Assembly: GCA_937138345.1 (NCBI GenBank)
Contig: CAKZOW010000119.1
Span: forward strand, 1-46,766
Length of the DNA stretch: 46,766 nt
Direction of reading: 5' to 3'
Origin: an uncultured archaeon
GTDB taxonomy: Archaea; Nanobdellota; Nanobdellia; Woesearchaeales; UBA583
In this document: positions 3,527 to 41,165 of the stretch, in pieces
Position numbering within the stretch: the stretch's first letter is position 1
How the letters are laid out: the number at the start of each line of letters is the position of its first letter
Notes under the pieces: model-generated
What the model saw: the letters and a program-made list of their open reading frames with translations, nothing else
Databases searched by the model: none
What the model was told of the DNA's origin: nothing
Position numbers and translations under genes: made by a program

Positions 3527-4891
3527 CTATCCGTTTTTTTCAGGTAATGTAAATCCTTTCAGCTCTCCGTATGCTTTATTCAAAATATACCAATCATTCT
3601 CATCCTTAAATCTTAGATGCACAGTACCCTTTTTAAAACATTTTATCTCAAAGAAACTCATATCATACCAAACGCCACGCTCTAAACCTTTTTTATCATT
3701 AAATAAATCTCTGATTTTTAGCTGTGAATCATAGTTACATCCAGTTAAATTACACAAAACTTTAATTAAGTCATTTACTCTTTTGTAATTGGCTCTATAA
3801 TTTAGGGTTAACTTTCCACTATTGCCCCACGTTTCCTCTACCATGTAATTTATGATAAATTTCCTGTTTAACATATATCCTGAGTTTGTTACCCATCCCT
3901 CTACTCCGTACCTGTTTTCTTTTGTATGCTTAGTAAAATGGTCTATTGTTTCCTCTAAAGCTCTATCTAAACTATTTTGCCTAGTTCCTACGATAATATC
4001 AAACATCCTGTAAATGTTTTTCATTGTGAAAGGAATGTTACTTTGTTTTTGGCAAAATATATTTATATCCTCCATAACTCCTGAGGTAACATATTTATCT
4101 AATTTCATTTTATTAAAAACGCTCCTCCATGCCTTAACCTGTAAATCTTTACAAAATTGAGCTACATCCTTTATAGTGTTATTATGACCAAATATAAATT
4201 TTACCTCAGAATCATCAGGAGTTAGATTATTTAGTTTCTCAGTTTCCTCATTTATTTTCTTAAAAGATTTTACTGCATCTACATACCTGTTAACAATATT
4301 TTGAATCTCATTATAGGGCATTACTCCACTCTCTGTATTTACATACTCCTCCTCTGTAAAAAATCCATCAAACTTTATATTATCATTTACTACTGGCTTA
4401 TAAAGCTGAATAAATCCAACCTCTACATTTGTTTTCCTCTCAGAATCACTAAAACAATCCCCAAAATTTACAGATACTCCATAGTTTTTAACCAATGAGC
4501 TTAACTCTGAGTATCTACTCTCATTTTCTACACTTTGCCAATTACATAAAGCAAATATCTCAGCTCCCTCAGGAGCTATGTTAAAAGCATGGATTATATG
4601 CCTATCAGCTCTATCAAAAGGAGGATTCATTATTATCATATCTATATGGCTCACATCCTCAGGATTTGCATCCAAAAAATCACTACCAATCAAATTCCCT
4701 TTATCTGCTACAATTTTCTGTAAATCCTCATTCAATTCATAACAGTAAACGCTTTTAGCTCCATTCTCTTTACAAAAATCTATAATATCCCCCTTTCCTG
4801 CTGATGGCTCTAAGACTGTTTTATTAAAACAGTCAAAGTTCATCATCTCAATAACCTCTTTAGGAGTTGGGTAAAAATTCTTATCAAACAT
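3527..4891 (-). CDS. DNA methyltransferase-like protein with C-terminal DUF4942-type domain
   Basis: 454 residues. The N-terminal half is a class I SAM-dependent methyltransferase: FYPTPKEV near the start, SAM-binding motif I VLEPSAGKGD (about residues 26-35), an acidic YEL after the second strand, and catalytic NPPF at 89-92, the form used by amino-methylating (N6-adenine or N4-cytosine) DNA enzymes. The rest, from about residue 200 (KAWRSVFNKMKLDKYVTSGV onward), resembles DUF4942, usually fused to such phage enzymes. No restriction partner is present, so it is an orphan enzyme that may protect phage DNA or alter host DNA. Target site unknown. It follows the 78-residue gene behind promoter module A. 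Confidence 0.8.
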   Translation of the reverse strand: MFDKNFYPTPKEVIEMMNFDCFNKTVLEPSAGKGDIIDFCKENGAKSVYCYELNEDLQKIVADKGNLIGSDFLDANPEDVSHIDMIIMNPPFDRADRHIIHAFNIAPEGAEIFALCNWQSVENESRYSELSSLVKNYGVSVNFGDCFSDSERKTNVEVGFIQLYKPVVNDNIKFDGFFTEEEYVNTESGVMPYNEIQNIVNRYVDAVKSFKKINEETEKLNNLTPDDSEVKFIFGHNNTIKDVAQFCKDLQVKAWRSVFNKMKLDKYVTSGVMEDINIFCQKQSNIPFTMKNIYRMFDIIVGTRQNSLDRALEETIDHFTKHTKENRYGVEGWVTNSGYMLNRKFIINYMVEETWGNSGKLTLNYRANYKRVNDLIKVLCNLTGCNYDSQLKIRDLFNDKKGLERGVWYDMSFFEIKCFKKGTVHLRFKDENDWYILNKAYGELKGFTLPEKNG

Positions 4892-4909
4892 CTTTTTTCT
4901 ATTTTTTAA

Positions 4910-5146
4910 TTAATAACCTAATGCTTTTAACATCCCCATAGCTAAATGCTGTAAGTAATGAAATACATCCCCATTCATAAAATCTATCTTAACTAAAGTA
5001 TTTTTAATTTGTGAATGGTAATCTTTTGCCTCAGCTATGTAATCCACTAACATCTCATAAGTAATACCATAATGCCCCTCAATTTGTAGCTCTGTACTTA
5101 ATGATGTTCCTTTCTCTGTAATTAAATTGATTAAATAAGTTTTCAT
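4910..5146 (-). CDS. Small hypothetical protein, first gene behind promoter module A
   Basis: 78 residues, mostly helical (MLVDYIAEAKDYHSQIKNTL; HYLQHLAMGMLKALGY). Not recognised. The ATG is preceded by AAAAGGCACAAATT, one of several starts with a GGCAC motif, and by promoter module A with TACATTTG at 5176-5183. The leader is about 30 nt. Short first genes right behind strong early promoters are often host-takeover factors, but this is only an inference. Confidence 0.7.
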   Translation of the reverse strand: MKTYLINLITEKGTSLSTELQIEGHYGITYEMLVDYIAEAKDYHSQIKNTLVKIDFMNGDVFHYLQHLAMGMLKALGY

Positions 5147-5175
5147 AATTTGTGCCTTTTGTTTGTTTGTATATT

Positions 5176-5256
5176 CAAATGTACTACAAAAAACTTTATA
5201 AAAAAACTTTTGAGCCTTTTTTATTTAAAAAATTCAATATTTTATTTTAAATATTA
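5176..5256 (-). promoter_or_regulatory. 81-bp repeated promoter module, copy A
   Basis: The -7 element TACATTTG is at 5176-5183. Upstream lies an AT-rich block almost identical to modules B (7490) and C (20068): AAAAGTTTTTTTATAA, preceded by AAAAAAGGCT and TATTGAATTTTTTAAATA. The similarity to copy B extends to about 5280 (shared AAAACTAATTTT on the plus strand). It drives the gene at 5146 and probably the methyltransferase and structural genes beyond. Confidence 0.75.
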
Positions 5257-5280
5257 TATATTATATATAAAACTAATTTT

Positions 5281-5712
5281 TTAAACCATGCCTTTCCTGC
5301 CAAATATGAGCATCCCTGCATCCCTGCCATGCTCATTAGTAATCCCTTTCCAGCCTGTTACAGCTTTAAATCTATTCTTATCCCATTTGGTTATAGATTT
5401 GGATGGGCGTACAAACTTATGAGGGATTTTAGCCTCAACTAAAAACTCCTCCCAAATCTTACAATCTCTTTTAACTGAACCTGCCCCCTGAGCTTTAGCC
5501 TTTGATGTATTGTATTGAACCTGCCTAGCATCCTCAACTATTACGCTCTTTATTCTATCTCTGAGCTGATGCACCTGCCTAATAGCATTTAAAATAGTAC
5601 ATGATGATACTGAGATAAATTTACTCTCTCCAGTATCCCAAATAGCTATTCCAGTATTTACTCCTGCATCAATTCCAATTAATAGTTCCTTTGTTTTTCT
5701 CTCTAAGCTCAT
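5281..5712 (-). CDS. RuvC-like Holliday junction resolvase
   Basis: 143 residues with an RNase H-fold nuclease pattern: first strand LLIGIDAGVNTGIAIWD with D15, VIVEDAR with E60, and the C-terminal NEHGRDAGMLIFG with H128 and D131. These match the acidic residues of small phage and bacterial RuvC-type resolvases, which cut four-way junctions before packaging. The start at 5712 overlaps the preceding gene by 44 nt. No later ATG lies before the catalytic strand, so the overlap is probably real. The gene ends next to promoter module A. Confidence 0.8.
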   Translation of the reverse strand: MSLERKTKELLIGIDAGVNTGIAIWDTGESKFISVSSCTILNAIRQVHQLRDRIKSVIVEDARQVQYNTSKAKAQGAGSVKRDCKIWEEFLVEAKIPHKFVRPSKSITKWDKNRFKAVTGWKGITNEHGRDAGMLIFGRKGMV

Positions 5713-5893
5713 GTATTACTTTTTGCTCTGTATGTACTCTATTATGATACCTAAAGATAGTAAAACCAATCCAGCATTCAGTAGGCTTACAAATGCAGTT
5801 TCCTCCTCCTGCATAATGGTCTAAATCTCCATCATTGGTAGGATACATATCCATAGTAAGCCTATCTCTATCTTTTTTGGGCATCTTATCCAT
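5669..5893 (-). CDS. Small hypothetical protein
   Basis: 74 residues with a GGGNCICKPTECWIGFTIFRYH segment containing three cysteines, and a charged C-terminal helix. Not recognised. It overlaps the YopX gene before it by 8 nt and the resolvase after it by 44 nt, which places it in the same transcript. The density of overlaps supports a real gene. Confidence 0.6.
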   Translation of the reverse strand: MDKMPKKDRDRLTMDMYPTNDGDLDHYAGGGNCICKPTECWIGFTIFRYHNRVHTEQKVIHELREKNKGTINWN

Positions 5894-6982: not shown

Positions 6983-7264
6983 TTATCTAGTAGTTAGTAT
7001 TTCCTCAGATAAATCATCCTCTGAGGCGTGTAATTTAAAATCCTCTACACACTCCTCAAAGCTCATCCCATCCTCATCCATAAATCTCCTCTCAATGCAG
7101 ATAGTGTTACCATCCTCATCTTTGAATTTAATTTCACTCCAAAAGATTCTGAGCTTATTGGTTACTCTATTCTCTAATAAATCATTGAAATCTTTTGCCT
7201 TTACTGTTTCTCCTACTACTCTGTTACAGAATACTACGAACGCTTTTAATTTTGAATTTGCCAT
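6983..7264 (-). CDS. Small acidic hypothetical protein
   Basis: 93 residues with an acidic C-terminal half (MDEDGMSFEECVEDFKLHASEDDLSEE). The start ATG at 7264 is preceded by AAAAAAAAGGCACAAA, one of the clearest copies of the GGCAC start motif. Not recognised. Confidence 0.65.
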   Translation of the reverse strand: MANSKLKAFVVFCNRVVGETVKAKDFNDLLENRVTNKLRIFWSEIKFKDEDGNTICIERRFMDEDGMSFEECVEDFKLHASEDDLSEEILTTR

Positions 7265-7301
7265 TTTGTGCCTTTTTTTTATTTGTTAACCTATAATTTA
7301 A

Positions 7302-7460: not shown

Positions 7461-7489
7461 AATAATCTGTTTTTCTTTGTTTGTATATT

Positions 7490-7570
7490 CAAAAGTAATA
7501 TAAATTTTCTTATAAAAAAACTTTTGAGGCTTTTTTATTTAAAAAATTCAATATTTTATTTTAAACATTA
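7490..7570 (-). promoter_or_regulatory. 81-bp repeated promoter module, copy B
   Basis: The -7 element TACTTTTG is at 7490-7497, with the same conserved upstream block as copies A and C (CAAAAGTTTTTTTATAAG, TTGAATTTTTTAAATAAAAA). It lies just downstream of the large terminase gene and drives the small-gene, YopX and resolvase operon. Confidence 0.75.
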
Positions 7571-7586
7571 GATAAATTATTTAAAA

Positions 7587-9591: not shown

Positions 9592-9599
9592 CAAATATA
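9592..9599 (-). promoter_or_regulatory. TAnnTTTG promoter for the terminase genes
   Basis: The minus strand reads TATATTTG 42 nt before the TerS ATG, just below terminator 9642-9673, so the terminase genes form an independently started unit. The upstream DNA is AT-rich; no clear -33 box is seen. Confidence 0.6.
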
Positions 9600-10298: not shown

Positions 10299-10306
10299 CA
10301 AATATA
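10299..10306 (-). promoter_or_regulatory. TAnnTTTG promoter of the moron-like gene, giving a leaderless mRNA
   Basis: The minus strand reads TATATTTG followed by GATT and then the ATG at 10294. Since transcription starts only a few bases after this element in Bacteroidota, the mRNA would begin at or next to the start codon. Confidence 0.5.
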
Positions 10307-10326
10307 GATAAAAAATGCCATATAAT

Positions 10327-10365
10327 AAAAAAGCTCCCAAACTGAATCAACAGGGGAGCTTTTTT
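10327..10365 (-). terminator. Rho-independent terminator upstream of the moron-like gene
   Basis: The stem AAAAAGCTCCC pairs with GGGAGCTTTTT around a loop of about 15 nt, with a T-tract on the minus strand after GGGAGC. The T-tract is also usable on the plus strand. It ends the transcript of the gene at 10427 and of the candidate small RNA. Confidence 0.85.
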
Positions 10366-10408
10366 AAGCTACTACAAAAAGGAAAAAGGCACTTTCCTAA
10401 CGAGTGGA
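10328..10408 (-). ncRNA. Candidate phage small RNA (promoter plus terminator, no ORF)
   Basis: A TATATTTG element (10412-10419) lies about 50 nt before the terminator at 10327-10365 with no start codon or frame between them. A transcript of about 80 nt would begin in or just after TACTCCACTCG, contain a small hairpin GGAAA/TTTCC whose loop includes GTGCC, and end with the terminator hairpin. GTGCCTTTTT (10383-10392) is complementary to AAAAAGGCAC found at several gene starts. Its existence is inferred from sequence only. Confidence 0.4.
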
Positions 10409-10411
10409 GTA

Positions 10412-10419
10412 CAAATATA
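10412..10419 (-). promoter_or_regulatory. TAnnTTTG promoter of the candidate small RNA
   Basis: The minus strand reads TATATTTG immediately after the stop region of the gene at 10427. It could alternatively feed the secreted-protein gene by readthrough of the terminator. Confidence 0.5.
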
Positions 10420-10426
10420 TAATAAA

Positions 10427-11056
10427 TTATCCTAAACCATCAGCAACATCACAAAACTTTTTAGCGTGTACCTCACTATAATCTCTAAAAACCTCCTCAG
10501 CTCTTTCCTTACTTGTAAATGACAATGTACTACTAATTGTTTTCCCTATATCATTGTTGAATATAGTTGTTTGCTTTACTGTGTACTCCTGTAATGGATT
10601 TGATGATATTTTTAACAAAACCTGCCTCCCATTTTCCATCTCTAATATCCTAACAAATTTAGTAGCTGGTTTTGGCAAATCATCTAGGGAGAAAACTAGT
10701 GCATAACAAAAAACCTCTCCATCCTCCATTATTGAAAACTTTGAATGATTCGCATTAATAAATAAATCCCATGTTAAATCAGGATTTGATTTAGGAGAAA
10801 ATGTAGCATTTAATCCTACTCCATTTTTTACTTTTCTCTTTCTACGGTCATACTTTCCTTTGGAATTTATGTAAACCATAACTCCATTATCAGCTCCAAT
10901 CTCATCATCTAATGCTCCCTCCAATATTAATAAATCATCTGATGCTCCATAGGCTATCACTAAATTATTTTCTTTGGCTTTCTCTGTGAGAGTTTTACTT
11001 ATGCCATCTCCGTACTTAATGCCATCTAAGGCTTTTGCTAATTCCTCTTTATTCAT
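10427..11056 (-). CDS. Conserved phage protein of unknown function
   Basis: 209 residues. The first third has LVIAYGASDDLLILEGALDD followed by IGADNGVMVYINSKG. I have seen this pattern (GASDDLxxxxGAxDDExG) in phage proteins of Bacteroidota and others, without known activity. The C-terminal part (SSTLSFTSKERAEEVFRDY) is helical. The start overlaps the ASCH gene by 4 nt (ATGA type), so the two are coupled. It is the last gene of the operon before the terminator at 10327. Confidence 0.7.
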   Translation of the reverse strand: MNKEELAKALDGIKYGDGISKTLTEKAKENNLVIAYGASDDLLILEGALDDEIGADNGVMVYINSKGKYDRRKRKVKNGVGLNATFSPKSNPDLTWDLFINANHSKFSIMEDGEVFCYALVFSLDDLPKPATKFVRILEMENGRQVLLKISSNPLQEYTVKQTTIFNNDIGKTISSTLSFTSKERAEEVFRDYSEVHAKKFCDVADGLG

Positions 11057-19662: not shown

Positions 19663-20038
19663 AATCCTCTACTTTTATTGATTTTTCAATTAAATCCTCT
19701 AAATTTTTCTTTTGCTTTTTTGTTAGTGGCATCAACTCTCCTAAATATTCAACTTTATAAATATCTATCTCTACTACCTCTCCAATAACATCAGATGATG
19801 CTGGAGTATCTCTATCTCCAAAATCCATTTCCACAGTCTGCCTAGCACTATACTCAAAATTAATAGCCGTTTCCTCTCCTAAAATAGAATCATAAACTAA
19901 ATAGCAATCTACATCATAACAGCTATACTCTTTTATCCTACCATTGCCTCCCAGCTCTTTCCATTGCAGATAAAACTCCTCCTCAGCATTTCCAAAATGC
20001 TTTAGTAATTTGTTGAATTTTTTGTTAGTATTTTTCAT
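19655..20038 (-). CDS. Hypothetical acidic protein, first gene behind promoter module C
   Basis: 127 residues. It has a helical N-terminus, a beta-rich middle (YSCYDVDCYLVYDSILGEE, ARQTVEMDFGDRD) and a helical basic C-terminus. The ATG is preceded by AAAGGCACAA and by the -7 element at 20068-20075. Not recognised. Confidence 0.65.
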   Translation of the reverse strand: MKNTNKKFNKLLKHFGNAEEEFYLQWKELGGNGRIKEYSCYDVDCYLVYDSILGEETAINFEYSARQTVEMDFGDRDTPASSDVIGEVVEIDIYKVEYLGELMPLTKKQKKNLEDLIEKSIKVEDYE

Positions 20039-20067
20039 TTGTGCCTTTACTTTTTGTTTTCTTAATT

Positions 20068-20148
20068 CAAAAGTAACATAAAAAACTTTATAAAAAAACT
20101 TTTTAGGCTTTTTTATTTAAAAAATTCAATATTTTATTTTAAATATTG
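20068..20148 (-). promoter_or_regulatory. 81-bp repeated promoter module, copy C
   Basis: The -7 element TACTTTTG is at 20068-20075, followed upstream by the same block as modules A and B (AAAAAGTTTTTTTATAAAG, TTGAATTTTTTAAATAAAAA). From the GTTTTTTATAAAG block upstream, copies A and C differ at only a few positions. It drives the operon with the Mini-A-like gene. Confidence 0.75.
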
Positions 20149-20158
20149 AATATTATAT

Positions 20159-26051: not shown

Positions 26052-26078
26052 AATGTGCCTTTTTTGTTTTCGCTTATG

Positions 26079-26086
26079 CAAATATA
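26079..26086 (-). promoter_or_regulatory. TAnnTTTG promoter of the early operon
   Basis: The minus strand reads TATATTTG between the terminator of the lysis operon and the first early gene, with a 20-bp AT-rich block at 26110-26129 shared (one difference) with the 17330 promoter. Confidence 0.65.
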
Positions 26087-26201: not shown

Positions 26202-26915
26202 CTACTTTATTTGAACTATTGCAATATTTAAACCTCCACTAATTACAGGAGTTAAATAAACCTGATTATCTCTTACAGTAGCTCCATATCCTAGATGCAA
26301 TCCTAAAGATATTCTCTTTGGTTTTTGCTTTACTGTAAAGCTCCTAAGCTCCTGAGTAATTGTATTAGGATTGAGATTTTTTACTCTTACCTCATTAGTC
26401 CTAGGCTTAAACCATCCATTTGATGCTCTCCCTAGAGTTATCTCATATTTATTGGCAATCTTTATATCTCTAAATACTGAATCCTTTGAGGCTACGATTT
26501 TTCCCCTCTCCCATTCGTTTTCCCACTCCGTTTCATACTTTGGGTACACAAATATCATTGAATCCGTTTTTATCGTATCTGAGGCTCTTATTTCAGTTAA
26601 ACTATTTCCTTTTGAGGAGGATGAGGATTGAGATATTAAAGCTGTGGCAATTTTTCCATTAAAATCTTTTACTACACTTTGTAACCATTTTAGGCTTTTA
26701 TCATTTGTTTTCAGCCTCAATAAATCATTCTTATGCTGGCTCTCTAATGCTCTAATGTAGCTTTCAGTAGTTCCATCAGCATTTTTCTCATGCTTTAGCT
26801 CATCAACTAGAGCCTCCATAAATTCCTTATCTGATTTATCTTTTTGGCATCCCCTTATTTGCAGAAATACCAAAACTCCCACTAATAGTAGGAGTAAAAT
26901 TGTGCCTTTTTTCAT
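26202..26915 (-). CDS. Spanin-like envelope protein (N-terminal TM, coiled coil, C-terminal beta end)
   Basis: 237 residues. An N-terminal signal anchor (ILLLLLVGVLVFLQI) ends in RGCQ. A helical periplasmic part follows (FMEALVDELKHEKNADG), then a beta-rich region with KIANKYEITLGRASNGWF, and finally ISLGLHLGYGATVRD and YLTPVISGGLNIAIVQI, which look like the last strands of an outer-membrane barrel. Position right after the endolysin and the layout suggest a protein that spans the envelope and disrupts the outer membrane at lysis. Family not certain (resembles proteins beside Bacteroidota phage amidases). Confidence 0.55.
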   Translation of the reverse strand: MKKGTILLLLLVGVLVFLQIRGCQKDKSDKEFMEALVDELKHEKNADGTTESYIRALESQHKNDLLRLKTNDKSLKWLQSVVKDFNGKIATALISQSSSSSKGNSLTEIRASDTIKTDSMIFVYPKYETEWENEWERGKIVASKDSVFRDIKIANKYEITLGRASNGWFKPRTNEVRVKNLNPNTITQELRSFTVKQKPKRISLGLHLGYGATVRDNQVYLTPVISGGLNIAIVQIK

Positions 26916-40200: not shown

Positions 40201-41165
40201 TCTCCAATACCAAACTCAGCATCTACTCCAAAGTTTGAGCTAATTTTACCTAATGTTAATCCAATATCATCAGCTGTACCTCCCAAAGTATCTCCTAAGG
40301 ATACAAATGCTTTATCTACTGCCTCAGTAAAATCTACTACATCCTGCCCTTTTAATCCTAATCTACCTCCTGCTGATGCCAATCCTAATAAATCCTCAAT
40401 AGATGTCCTAGTATCTATCTCTCTGATTGATTTAGCCATTAACTCAACCTCCTGCCTAGTTTGCCCTGTGGTTTTCTGTACATCAACTAATGCCTCATCA
40501 TAATCAGCTAAAATCTTAAATCCTGATTTGAATAAATTTACTGCTCCAAATACTCCTCCAGCTAATCCTAATGCACTAGTAAAGCTCAGCAATTTCTCTC
40601 TCACATCCTGTAAAGCATCACTATAATTACCTACATTTCTCCTATTATCTCCAGTAACTTTCTCTAGCCTTTTTAGAGATGCTGTTAATTCTGTTTTAGA
40701 TTTTACTAGCCTCCTCCCTCTTTTGGTATTTTCCAGCTCCTCTACATTAACATTTTTCAATGCTACTGTTACTAGAGCTAATTTAGCTCTCAAATTCTCT
40801 ATACTACCTGCCTCAGTTTTTTTGATTCTAGCTATTGCCTTTGCCTCAGCTCTAGCCTCTCTCAATGCTAAATTCTCTTTCTCTCTTTGGATTAATTCAG
40901 CTTTTGATAGCTCAGATAGCTTTTTTCTAGTGTTTACTGTCTTAACCTTGATTTTATTAAGCTCAGCCTGAGATTTTTTTAATTTCTCAACCTCAATAAC
41001 CAATTTTTTTACCTGCTCACTTTCCTCAGGAGAAACTACATTTAATGCTCCCTCCAAAGATTTTCCCTTTGTCTTAATGAAATTTTCTAAATCTGTAATT
41101 TGTTTCTCCAGTTTATCAAAAGCTCCATCATCTCCTACTAAGTCGCTATAATTAATTATTGCCAT
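37263..41165 (-). CDS. Tape measure protein
   Basis: 1300 residues, the longest gene, as expected for a tape measure that sets tail length (at about 0.15 nm per residue, roughly 195 nm). Coiled coils fill the N-terminal 180 and the region after about 690. Hydrophobic segments are near 195-220 (LGLAGGVFGAVNLF), 545-570 and 605-620 (FVGIITGITTLISLLPIF). The C-terminal FKDGGYTGDGG, VDRVAGVTHGQEFVIDAP is typical of tape measures. Start overlaps the upstream gene by 14 nt. Confidence 0.9.
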   Translation of the reverse strand: MAIINYSDLVGDDGAFDKLEKQITDLENFIKTKGKSLEGALNVVSPEESEQVKKLVIEVEKLKKSQAELNKIKVKTVNTRKKLSELSKAELIQREKENLALREARAEAKAIARIKKTEAGSIENLRAKLALVTVALKNVNVEELENTKRGRRLVKSKTELTASLKRLEKVTGDNRRNVGNYSDALQDVREKLLSFTSALGLAGGVFGAVNLFKSGFKILADYDEALVDVQKTTGQTRQEVELMAKSIREIDTRTSIEDLLGLASAGGRLGLKGQDVVDFTEAVDKAFVSLGDTLGGTADDIGLTLGKISSNFGVDAEFGIGEGITKVGSSLNELGANSKATEDKIIDFTQRLAGLSSQANISVSDVNALGALFDEAGQSIETSSTVINKFLPEIGKDIEKFAKIAGVTEKEFRKITNASPIEALKLVASGAKSTEGGLEGLANTMQDLGIENARAVGIIGVLSNSTERLTELQEISNTAFEEGTSIQSEFEKKNTSLQAEVEKLTKSWQEMVISTDDTNNSISSLKSVVVFLRQNLSTFVIAIRNAVIAFSLMKTVMFAVNNGMRIYRATLSAITLAQGLFQGGVKLSALSIKGFSTAVKGIPFVGIITGITTLISLLPIFTSKTKELTDEQELLNEKLREEARLRKQQITTGKTLIKNYNDIKATASNLDNLSQDQLKAFLANIDEEISANETKNKNLLKNEQKYQEQVQMNTLTKKLNYEGANAELLENEDYTQEQIALLQQKRGLAERGLIADSIAGNDALVDNIRANEEGITQVKLTAQTEDLKNLRKTVKGKIKAERDYNRDAKKIAKDLANYRKRLEDANDEAIKVDEDREIQQLKRRYQREIATIKGNSKVATDLRKALEEERGVRVQEITDKYIEIRLKKLESAREIEIGYIEDETEKSIELERIKSQKILDEIAQNSEIRTFKKLELMIKEYKRLEEFEKNQALQKKLRELESDKLIDEAKVEQTRASFKTQEAYEKFKEEKFLEIKREYLKKRIELLESANNDEFKVEVEQLKAQLANLAIPPESSQWKKFADDISNSIIQISESIENKLQASVEGMEDALNKQEALVEEQRQRAINGQANTLAFEKKEQAKREAQLLASQKRLERIQRFKSYYNTYNANLSALRDGQDSSVALAKTIKDITILEALTAGFKDGGYTGDGGVDRVAGVTHGQEFVIDAPNTKALGLRGKSMKDFKERFTNAGWSMQSSSQLERNNFGTQAKEFTKNVNPTAISTKKIEDGLRDLLDYEKSKPVQQVDVVKMVDGTLEFVEEVRKRNMRKINRYPLKRNRF

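Follow-up and report, generated by a model that had tools for sequence, protein, structure and literature searches.

GibS, a trans-encoded small RNA of Bacteroides thetaiotaomicron, pairs through a 5' seed across the start regions of two mRNAs and represses them (PMC7366714), and Rfp18, a small RNA of Flavobacterium psychrophilum, is chromosomal, conserved in the genus and measured by RNA-seq (PMC9723704). Among phage-encoded small RNAs, PreS of lambda and VpdS are verified and linked to Hfq (reviewed in PMC12197685); Bacteroides has no obvious Hfq (PMC7366714). Our literature searches turned up no small RNA described from a phage of Flavobacterium. The mRNAs of Flavobacterium naturally lack Shine-Dalgarno sequences, the phylum being without Shine-Dalgarno leaders and relying on A-rich, unstructured upstream sequence (PMC6847099). 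Here we compare with these systems a promoter-terminator unit in a phage contig of 46.8 kb (46,766 nucleotides; the whole stretch analysed is called the window), which an initial annotation had read as a candidate small RNA complementary to the starts of five phage genes.

Results

The window has 33% GC and carries nearly all of its genes on the minus strand. Its capsid, terminase and endolysin families match phage models, and its TerL shares 63% identity with that of Flavobacterium phage 1/32 and 53% with that of tant8-1; judged from these matches, it is a Flavobacterium-type phage. A narrow pattern search of the other contigs of the assembly (G000) found no promoters comparable to the TATATTTG-ATG arrangement. 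The window (contig C119) may well be mis-binned, and G000 cannot be taken as the host.

From the stop codon of gene 11056-10427 to the next promoter, the minus strand reads TATATTTG, about 5 nt, CCACUCGUUAGGAAAGUGCCUUUUUCCUUUUUGUAGUAGCUU and a terminator. The features are as follows.

10412-10419, minus strand: -7 promoter element TATATTTG, fitting TAHHTTTG, directly 3' of the stop codon of the upstream gene (10427)
10327-10407, minus strand: predicted non-coding transcript of about 80 nt, its start placed by F. johnsoniae spacing and its end by the terminator U-run
10380-10398, minus strand: 5' hairpin AGGAAAG-UGCCU-UUUUCCU (predicted fold, -5.0 kcal/mol for the hairpin alone)
10392-10383, minus strand: proposed pairing segment GUGCCUUUUU (DNA GTGCCTTTTT), within the 5' hairpin
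10327-10365, minus strand: intrinsic terminator with 12-bp stem and U6, from sequence and fold
10299-10306, minus strand: a further TATATTTG promoter, which serves the next gene (probable start ATG 10294)

The element at 10419-10412 agrees with the Bacteroidota -7 consensus TAHHTTTG (PMC7366714), which is also that of F. johnsoniae, where its G sits at -5 (PMC6847099); because of this spacing, the start of the transcript is put near 10407, giving an RNA of about 80 nt. There is no good -33 TTG box upstream of the promoter, the nearest TTG lying 24 nt away. Between promoter and terminator the same strand has no open reading frame of at least 20 amino acids, and its longest GTG frame runs to six codons. 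The arms of the terminator stem are AAAAAAGCTCCC (10365-10354) and GGGAGCTTTTTT (10338-10327), separated by a 15-nt loop; our terminator scan, which took loops of 3-8 nt only, did not list this hairpin, and it was recovered by folding. For the unit the fold has an energy of -26.5 kcal/mol (z -4.6), most of it from the terminator, and the predicted 5' hairpin presents UGCC in a loop of 5 nt. The TATATTTG element, the absence of a frame and the strong terminator of the initial annotation are thus confirmed in the sequence, and the unit is built as an independent small RNA would be. Rfam 15 at gathering score gives no match in the window, nor in phage 1/32, tant8-1 or FpV9 (L024, L025 and L116). 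The layout does not fit a cis-encoded antisense RNA, since the RNA and all of its proposed targets are on one strand, 3-17 kb apart. As to neighboring genes, the open reading frame list begins one at 10321, ahead of its own promoter (10306-10299), and another at 9594; the true starts are probably ATG 10294 and ATG 9549, respectively.

Complements of the pairing segment stand at the five gene starts that had been named, and all of the reported match lengths (8-10 nt) are correct.

5152-5160, minus strand: candidate target AAAAGGCAC in the leader (about 25 nt) of gene 5146-4910; promoter TACATTTG at 5183
7268-7276, minus strand: candidate target AAAAGGCAC just 5' of the start of gene 7264-6983, a second gene without its own promoter
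20041-20048, minus strand: candidate target AAAGGCAC, leader of gene 20038-19655, which has promoter TACTTTTG at 20075
26055-26064, minus strand: candidate target AAAAAGGCAC, leader of gene 26051-25803, which has promoter TATATTTG at 26086
26902-26910, minus strand: AAAAGGCAC inside gene 26915-26202 (codons 2-5, Lys-Lys-Gly-Thr), 3' of the endolysin gene

Five copies of AAAAGGCAC occur in the window, four on the minus strand (5160, 7276, 26063, 26910) and one on the plus strand (10384), against 0.52 expected from dinucleotide shuffles of the window, none of 100 shuffles reaching five; AAAGGCAC is additionally present at 20048. AGGCAC is the main enriched motif containing G or C in the 20 nt before gene starts (5 versus 0.29 expected). 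Most other gene starts in the window have no such site, and 11388 has a partial one (AGGCACA). At 5146, 20038 and 26051 the motif falls some 10-20 nt past the predicted transcription start, within a leader of about 25 nt, and it runs one A (CACA) beyond its complementarity to the RNA.

The set of five targets needs qualifying. The match at 26910 is in frame (ATG AAA AAA GGC ACA), at the start of a signal/TM protein gene that follows the endolysin gene, and is probably a coding coincidence. The leaders of 5146, 7460 and 20038 are copies of a cassette of about 85 nt, of which the 7460 copy has no motif, having lost it or never had it; because the leaders of 5146 and 20038 are both copies of one promoter cassette, they are not independent. 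About three independent leaders therefore remain, not five. The four-leader set as proposed is, on this sequence evidence, possible and somewhat short of probable. The cassette itself stands at operon heads three times (5147-5280, 7461-7586 and 20039-20158; AAAATAAAATATTGAATTTTTTAAATAAAAAAGC...TTTTTTTATAA...TACTTTTG) and is probably the early promoter of the phage.

How far chance could produce the match depends on the framing. For the given motif, the expectation for AAAGGCAC is 0.13 occurrences over the plus strand of the window and 0.007 over all gaps together. If instead any of the ten 8-mers that contain G or C and are common to three starts is allowed, the complement of one or another turns up in 17% of simulated gap sets. 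Of 24 contigs examined alike, two scored, the window and L067. The L067 lookalike (4534-5771) was rejected: AAAAGCGT stands before three genes there, and the gap sequence complementary to it forms one arm of a terminator hairpin, which shows that coincidences of this sort do arise.

Duplex energies of the candidate RNA with 67 gene starts were compared with those of 150 dinucleotide shuffles. The candidate had 21 sites that reached -14 kcal/mol or better, against 10.9 +/- 3.5 in the shuffles, one of which was as high, and the six best duplexes averaged -19.85 against -17.25, with seven shuffles as good; the candidate thus paired with gene starts better than 143-149 of the 150. The same test on two controls, the units of 1/32 and tant8-1, gave no excess pairing. 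At a threshold of -11, 11 of 406 random 82-nt windows matched the candidate, all from the plus strand, and U/C-rich RNA of any kind pairs with A-rich leaders. The sequence support for targeting is accordingly modest, with p of about 0.01 to 0.17 by framing and the question posed after the match had been seen.

The 16 related contigs, counting the window among them, have 79 coding-strand terminators, and TAnnTTTG lies 8-80 nt upstream of 15 (some inside genes and not units), whereas permuted motifs average 3.8, the next highest reaching 7. In four further isolates it precedes 6 of 42 terminators and again ranks first (permuted mean 1.9, next highest 4). In this phage group the motif is about three to four times over-represented before terminators. 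As in the window, such a unit lies close to terL in five or six of the related phages. In L029, L030, L031 and L037/L038, TAnnTTTG stands at or just past a stop codon; some 25-36 nt further on come a terminator and then another TAnnTTTG promoter. These units lie 1.2-2.6 kb upstream of terL and have a common 5' end close to CAAAGCCATAAT; L034 has a degenerate, less exact copy 0.85 kb upstream of terL. Units in this position and a second type behind lysis genes are located as follows.

L029 7985-8066: orphan unit upstream of terL
L030 4729-4810: orphan unit upstream of terL
L031 8279-8345: orphan unit upstream of terL
L037 6237-6300: orphan unit upstream of terL
L034 9114-9180: orphan unit upstream of terL
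L025 (tant8-1) 40431-40514: second orphan unit
L116 (FpV9) 19888-19965: second orphan unit

The second, also conserved, consists of TATATTTGnCAAAGATTTnCCACnAGTCT and then a terminator, and is kept in tant8-1 and FpV9 though these phages have otherwise diverged; the unit behind gene 11 of 1/32 has 21 identical bases around its promoter in common with tant8-1. The recurrence of this layout supports, at the level of sequence, the view that orphan small-RNA genes may be a regular feature of these phages, and it raises the odds that the unit in the window is one.

The terL-upstream units, whose conserved 5' end is close to TATATTTGCAAAAGCCATAATT, are absent from Rfam as far as searched, and the reverse complement, AATTATGGCTTT, looks like a start-codon region. 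In the parts of the relatives examined, the complement of the AGCCATAAT segment (TTATGGC) formed no consistent set at start codons. Extra matches to the CAAAAGCCATAA pattern in IMG/VR (L113 and L114) were rejected as coding-like, unrelated and without a terminator. Phage 1/32 carries, near 5890, 8640 and 41680, a repeated cassette AACTTGCGAGAATGAAAAATAGTTGTAAATTTGCT before several genes, a counterpart of the window cassette.

Searches for closer relatives returned little. The exact hairpin had no match in IMG/VR, nor had the unit by blastn against phage records, and neither the RNA nor AAAGGCAC leaders were found in relatives among the database phages searched. A search with the flanking gene yielded no close phage and two distant GC-rich matches only, those with gene 26915, the topoisomerase or the capsid none, and a scan of genome contigs four distant matches only. 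The terL search gave relatives at 51-63% identity, all without GGCAC leaders. Finding such leaders in phages that lack the RNA had been put forward as a refutation of the proposal; that none was found lends the proposal weak support, the leaders of the relatives not being homologous.

Discussion

The proposal of a small RNA acting on phage gene starts has held in part: the anatomy of the unit, the enrichment of its layout in relatives and pairing that exceeds that of shuffles all favor it. We consider the unit somewhat likely to be a small RNA, as far as sequence can indicate. The reading we prefer, tentatively and at rather less than an even chance, is of an orphan phage small RNA that represses operon-head genes by pairing with their leaders. 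Under such a model, the primary sigma factor of the host would read TATATTTG to give an RNA of about 80 nt ending at the strong terminator, and its 5' hairpin would present UGCC with a U/C-rich flank and pair, loop first, with A-rich AAAAGGCAC leaders. Pairing would lie 2-5 nt before the start codons of 5146, 7264, 20038 and 26051 and block ribosome entry; A-rich upstream sequence is what the U/C-rich segment would cover. Gene 20038-19655 heads a long operon ending at 10427, and the putative RNA gene lies just past that end, adjoining the terS/terL unit. Because the RNA gene would thus stand beyond an operon headed by its own target, delayed negative feedback at the early/late transition may be envisioned, the operon-head genes being damped as late expression begins or the early program ends. 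Transcription, pairing in the cell, repression and timing are steps that we infer.

Alternatively, the unit may encode a real phage small RNA directed at host mRNAs or at phage mRNAs other than those named, in which case the GGCAC match would be a by-product of a U/C-rich hairpin loop. The enrichment of the layout is independent of GGCAC leaders, the units of relatives differ in their 5' ends and have no clear phage target set, and the named targets shrink to about three independent leaders; however, the excess pairing of the window unit with phage starts runs against such an explanation, which we regard as unlikely, if not strongly so. There may also be no separate RNA: the long early operon, which stops at 10427, would simply have its 3' end and terminator here, with TATATTTG and GTGCC present by chance. 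The missing -33 box would fit, as would the several dozen TAnnTTTG on the minus strand of this AT-rich DNA, mostly within genes, and a terminator is required here anyway, to part the operon from the next promoter (10306). The over-representation of TAnnTTTG ahead of terminators in the phage group argues against chance, however, as does the order of stop, promoter, short spacer, terminator and promoter that several relatives keep, and we hold this explanation to be unlikely.

One could also envision AAAAGGCAC as a DNA operator or a leader element, e.g., a translation enhancer spread with the duplicated cassette, in which case 10383-10392 would be a further operator copy, inverted and downstream of a promoter. 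Such an element would account for the position of the motif, which in 5146, 20038, 26051 and the candidate unit sits, in either orientation, at roughly +10 to +25 relative to the predicted start, and for the threefold repetition of the promoter cassette; AAAGG also looks like a Shine-Dalgarno core. On the other hand, the motif is non-palindromic, it is present at 7264 where there is no promoter, and the natural lack of Shine-Dalgarno sequences in Flavobacterium mRNAs (PMC6847099) also speaks against this explanation, which we think very unlikely.

Returning to the small RNA with leader targets, a broader claim is improbable as a whole: that Flavobacteriia phages share an undescribed class of orphan small RNAs and that the RNA of the window co-evolved with the leader motif to repress four operon heads. 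Members of that class would run from a TAHHTTTG promoter through 35-50 nt, the 5' end of which is conserved, to a terminator; they would be common behind lysis genes and, upstream of terL, at the early/late junction. If the unit works, a single RNA would set the switch between operon sets through a leader motif, and the recurring units would become a list of candidate phage small-RNA genes in FpV9, tant8-1 and 1/32.

Among described systems, GibS is like the candidate in belonging to Bacteroidota, in being intergenic and in directing a 5' seed against translation starts (PMC7366714), an analogy of mechanism only; in contrast, GibS is a chromosomal RNA whose targets have been measured and whose 5' seed is extended and unstructured, whereas the candidate has a putative seed of about 10 nt in a hairpin loop. 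Rfp18 is comparable as a Flavobacterium small RNA with a single pairing region predicted for several mRNAs (PMC9723704), a likeness of description. PreS and VpdS share with the candidate that a phage-encoded small RNA is proposed to steer the infection program through base pairing, but they are verified and Hfq-linked, whereas the proposed targets of the candidate are the phage's own leaders. A small RNA here would be a known kind of thing in a new place, and the wider recurrence of promoter-terminator units is the more interesting lead.
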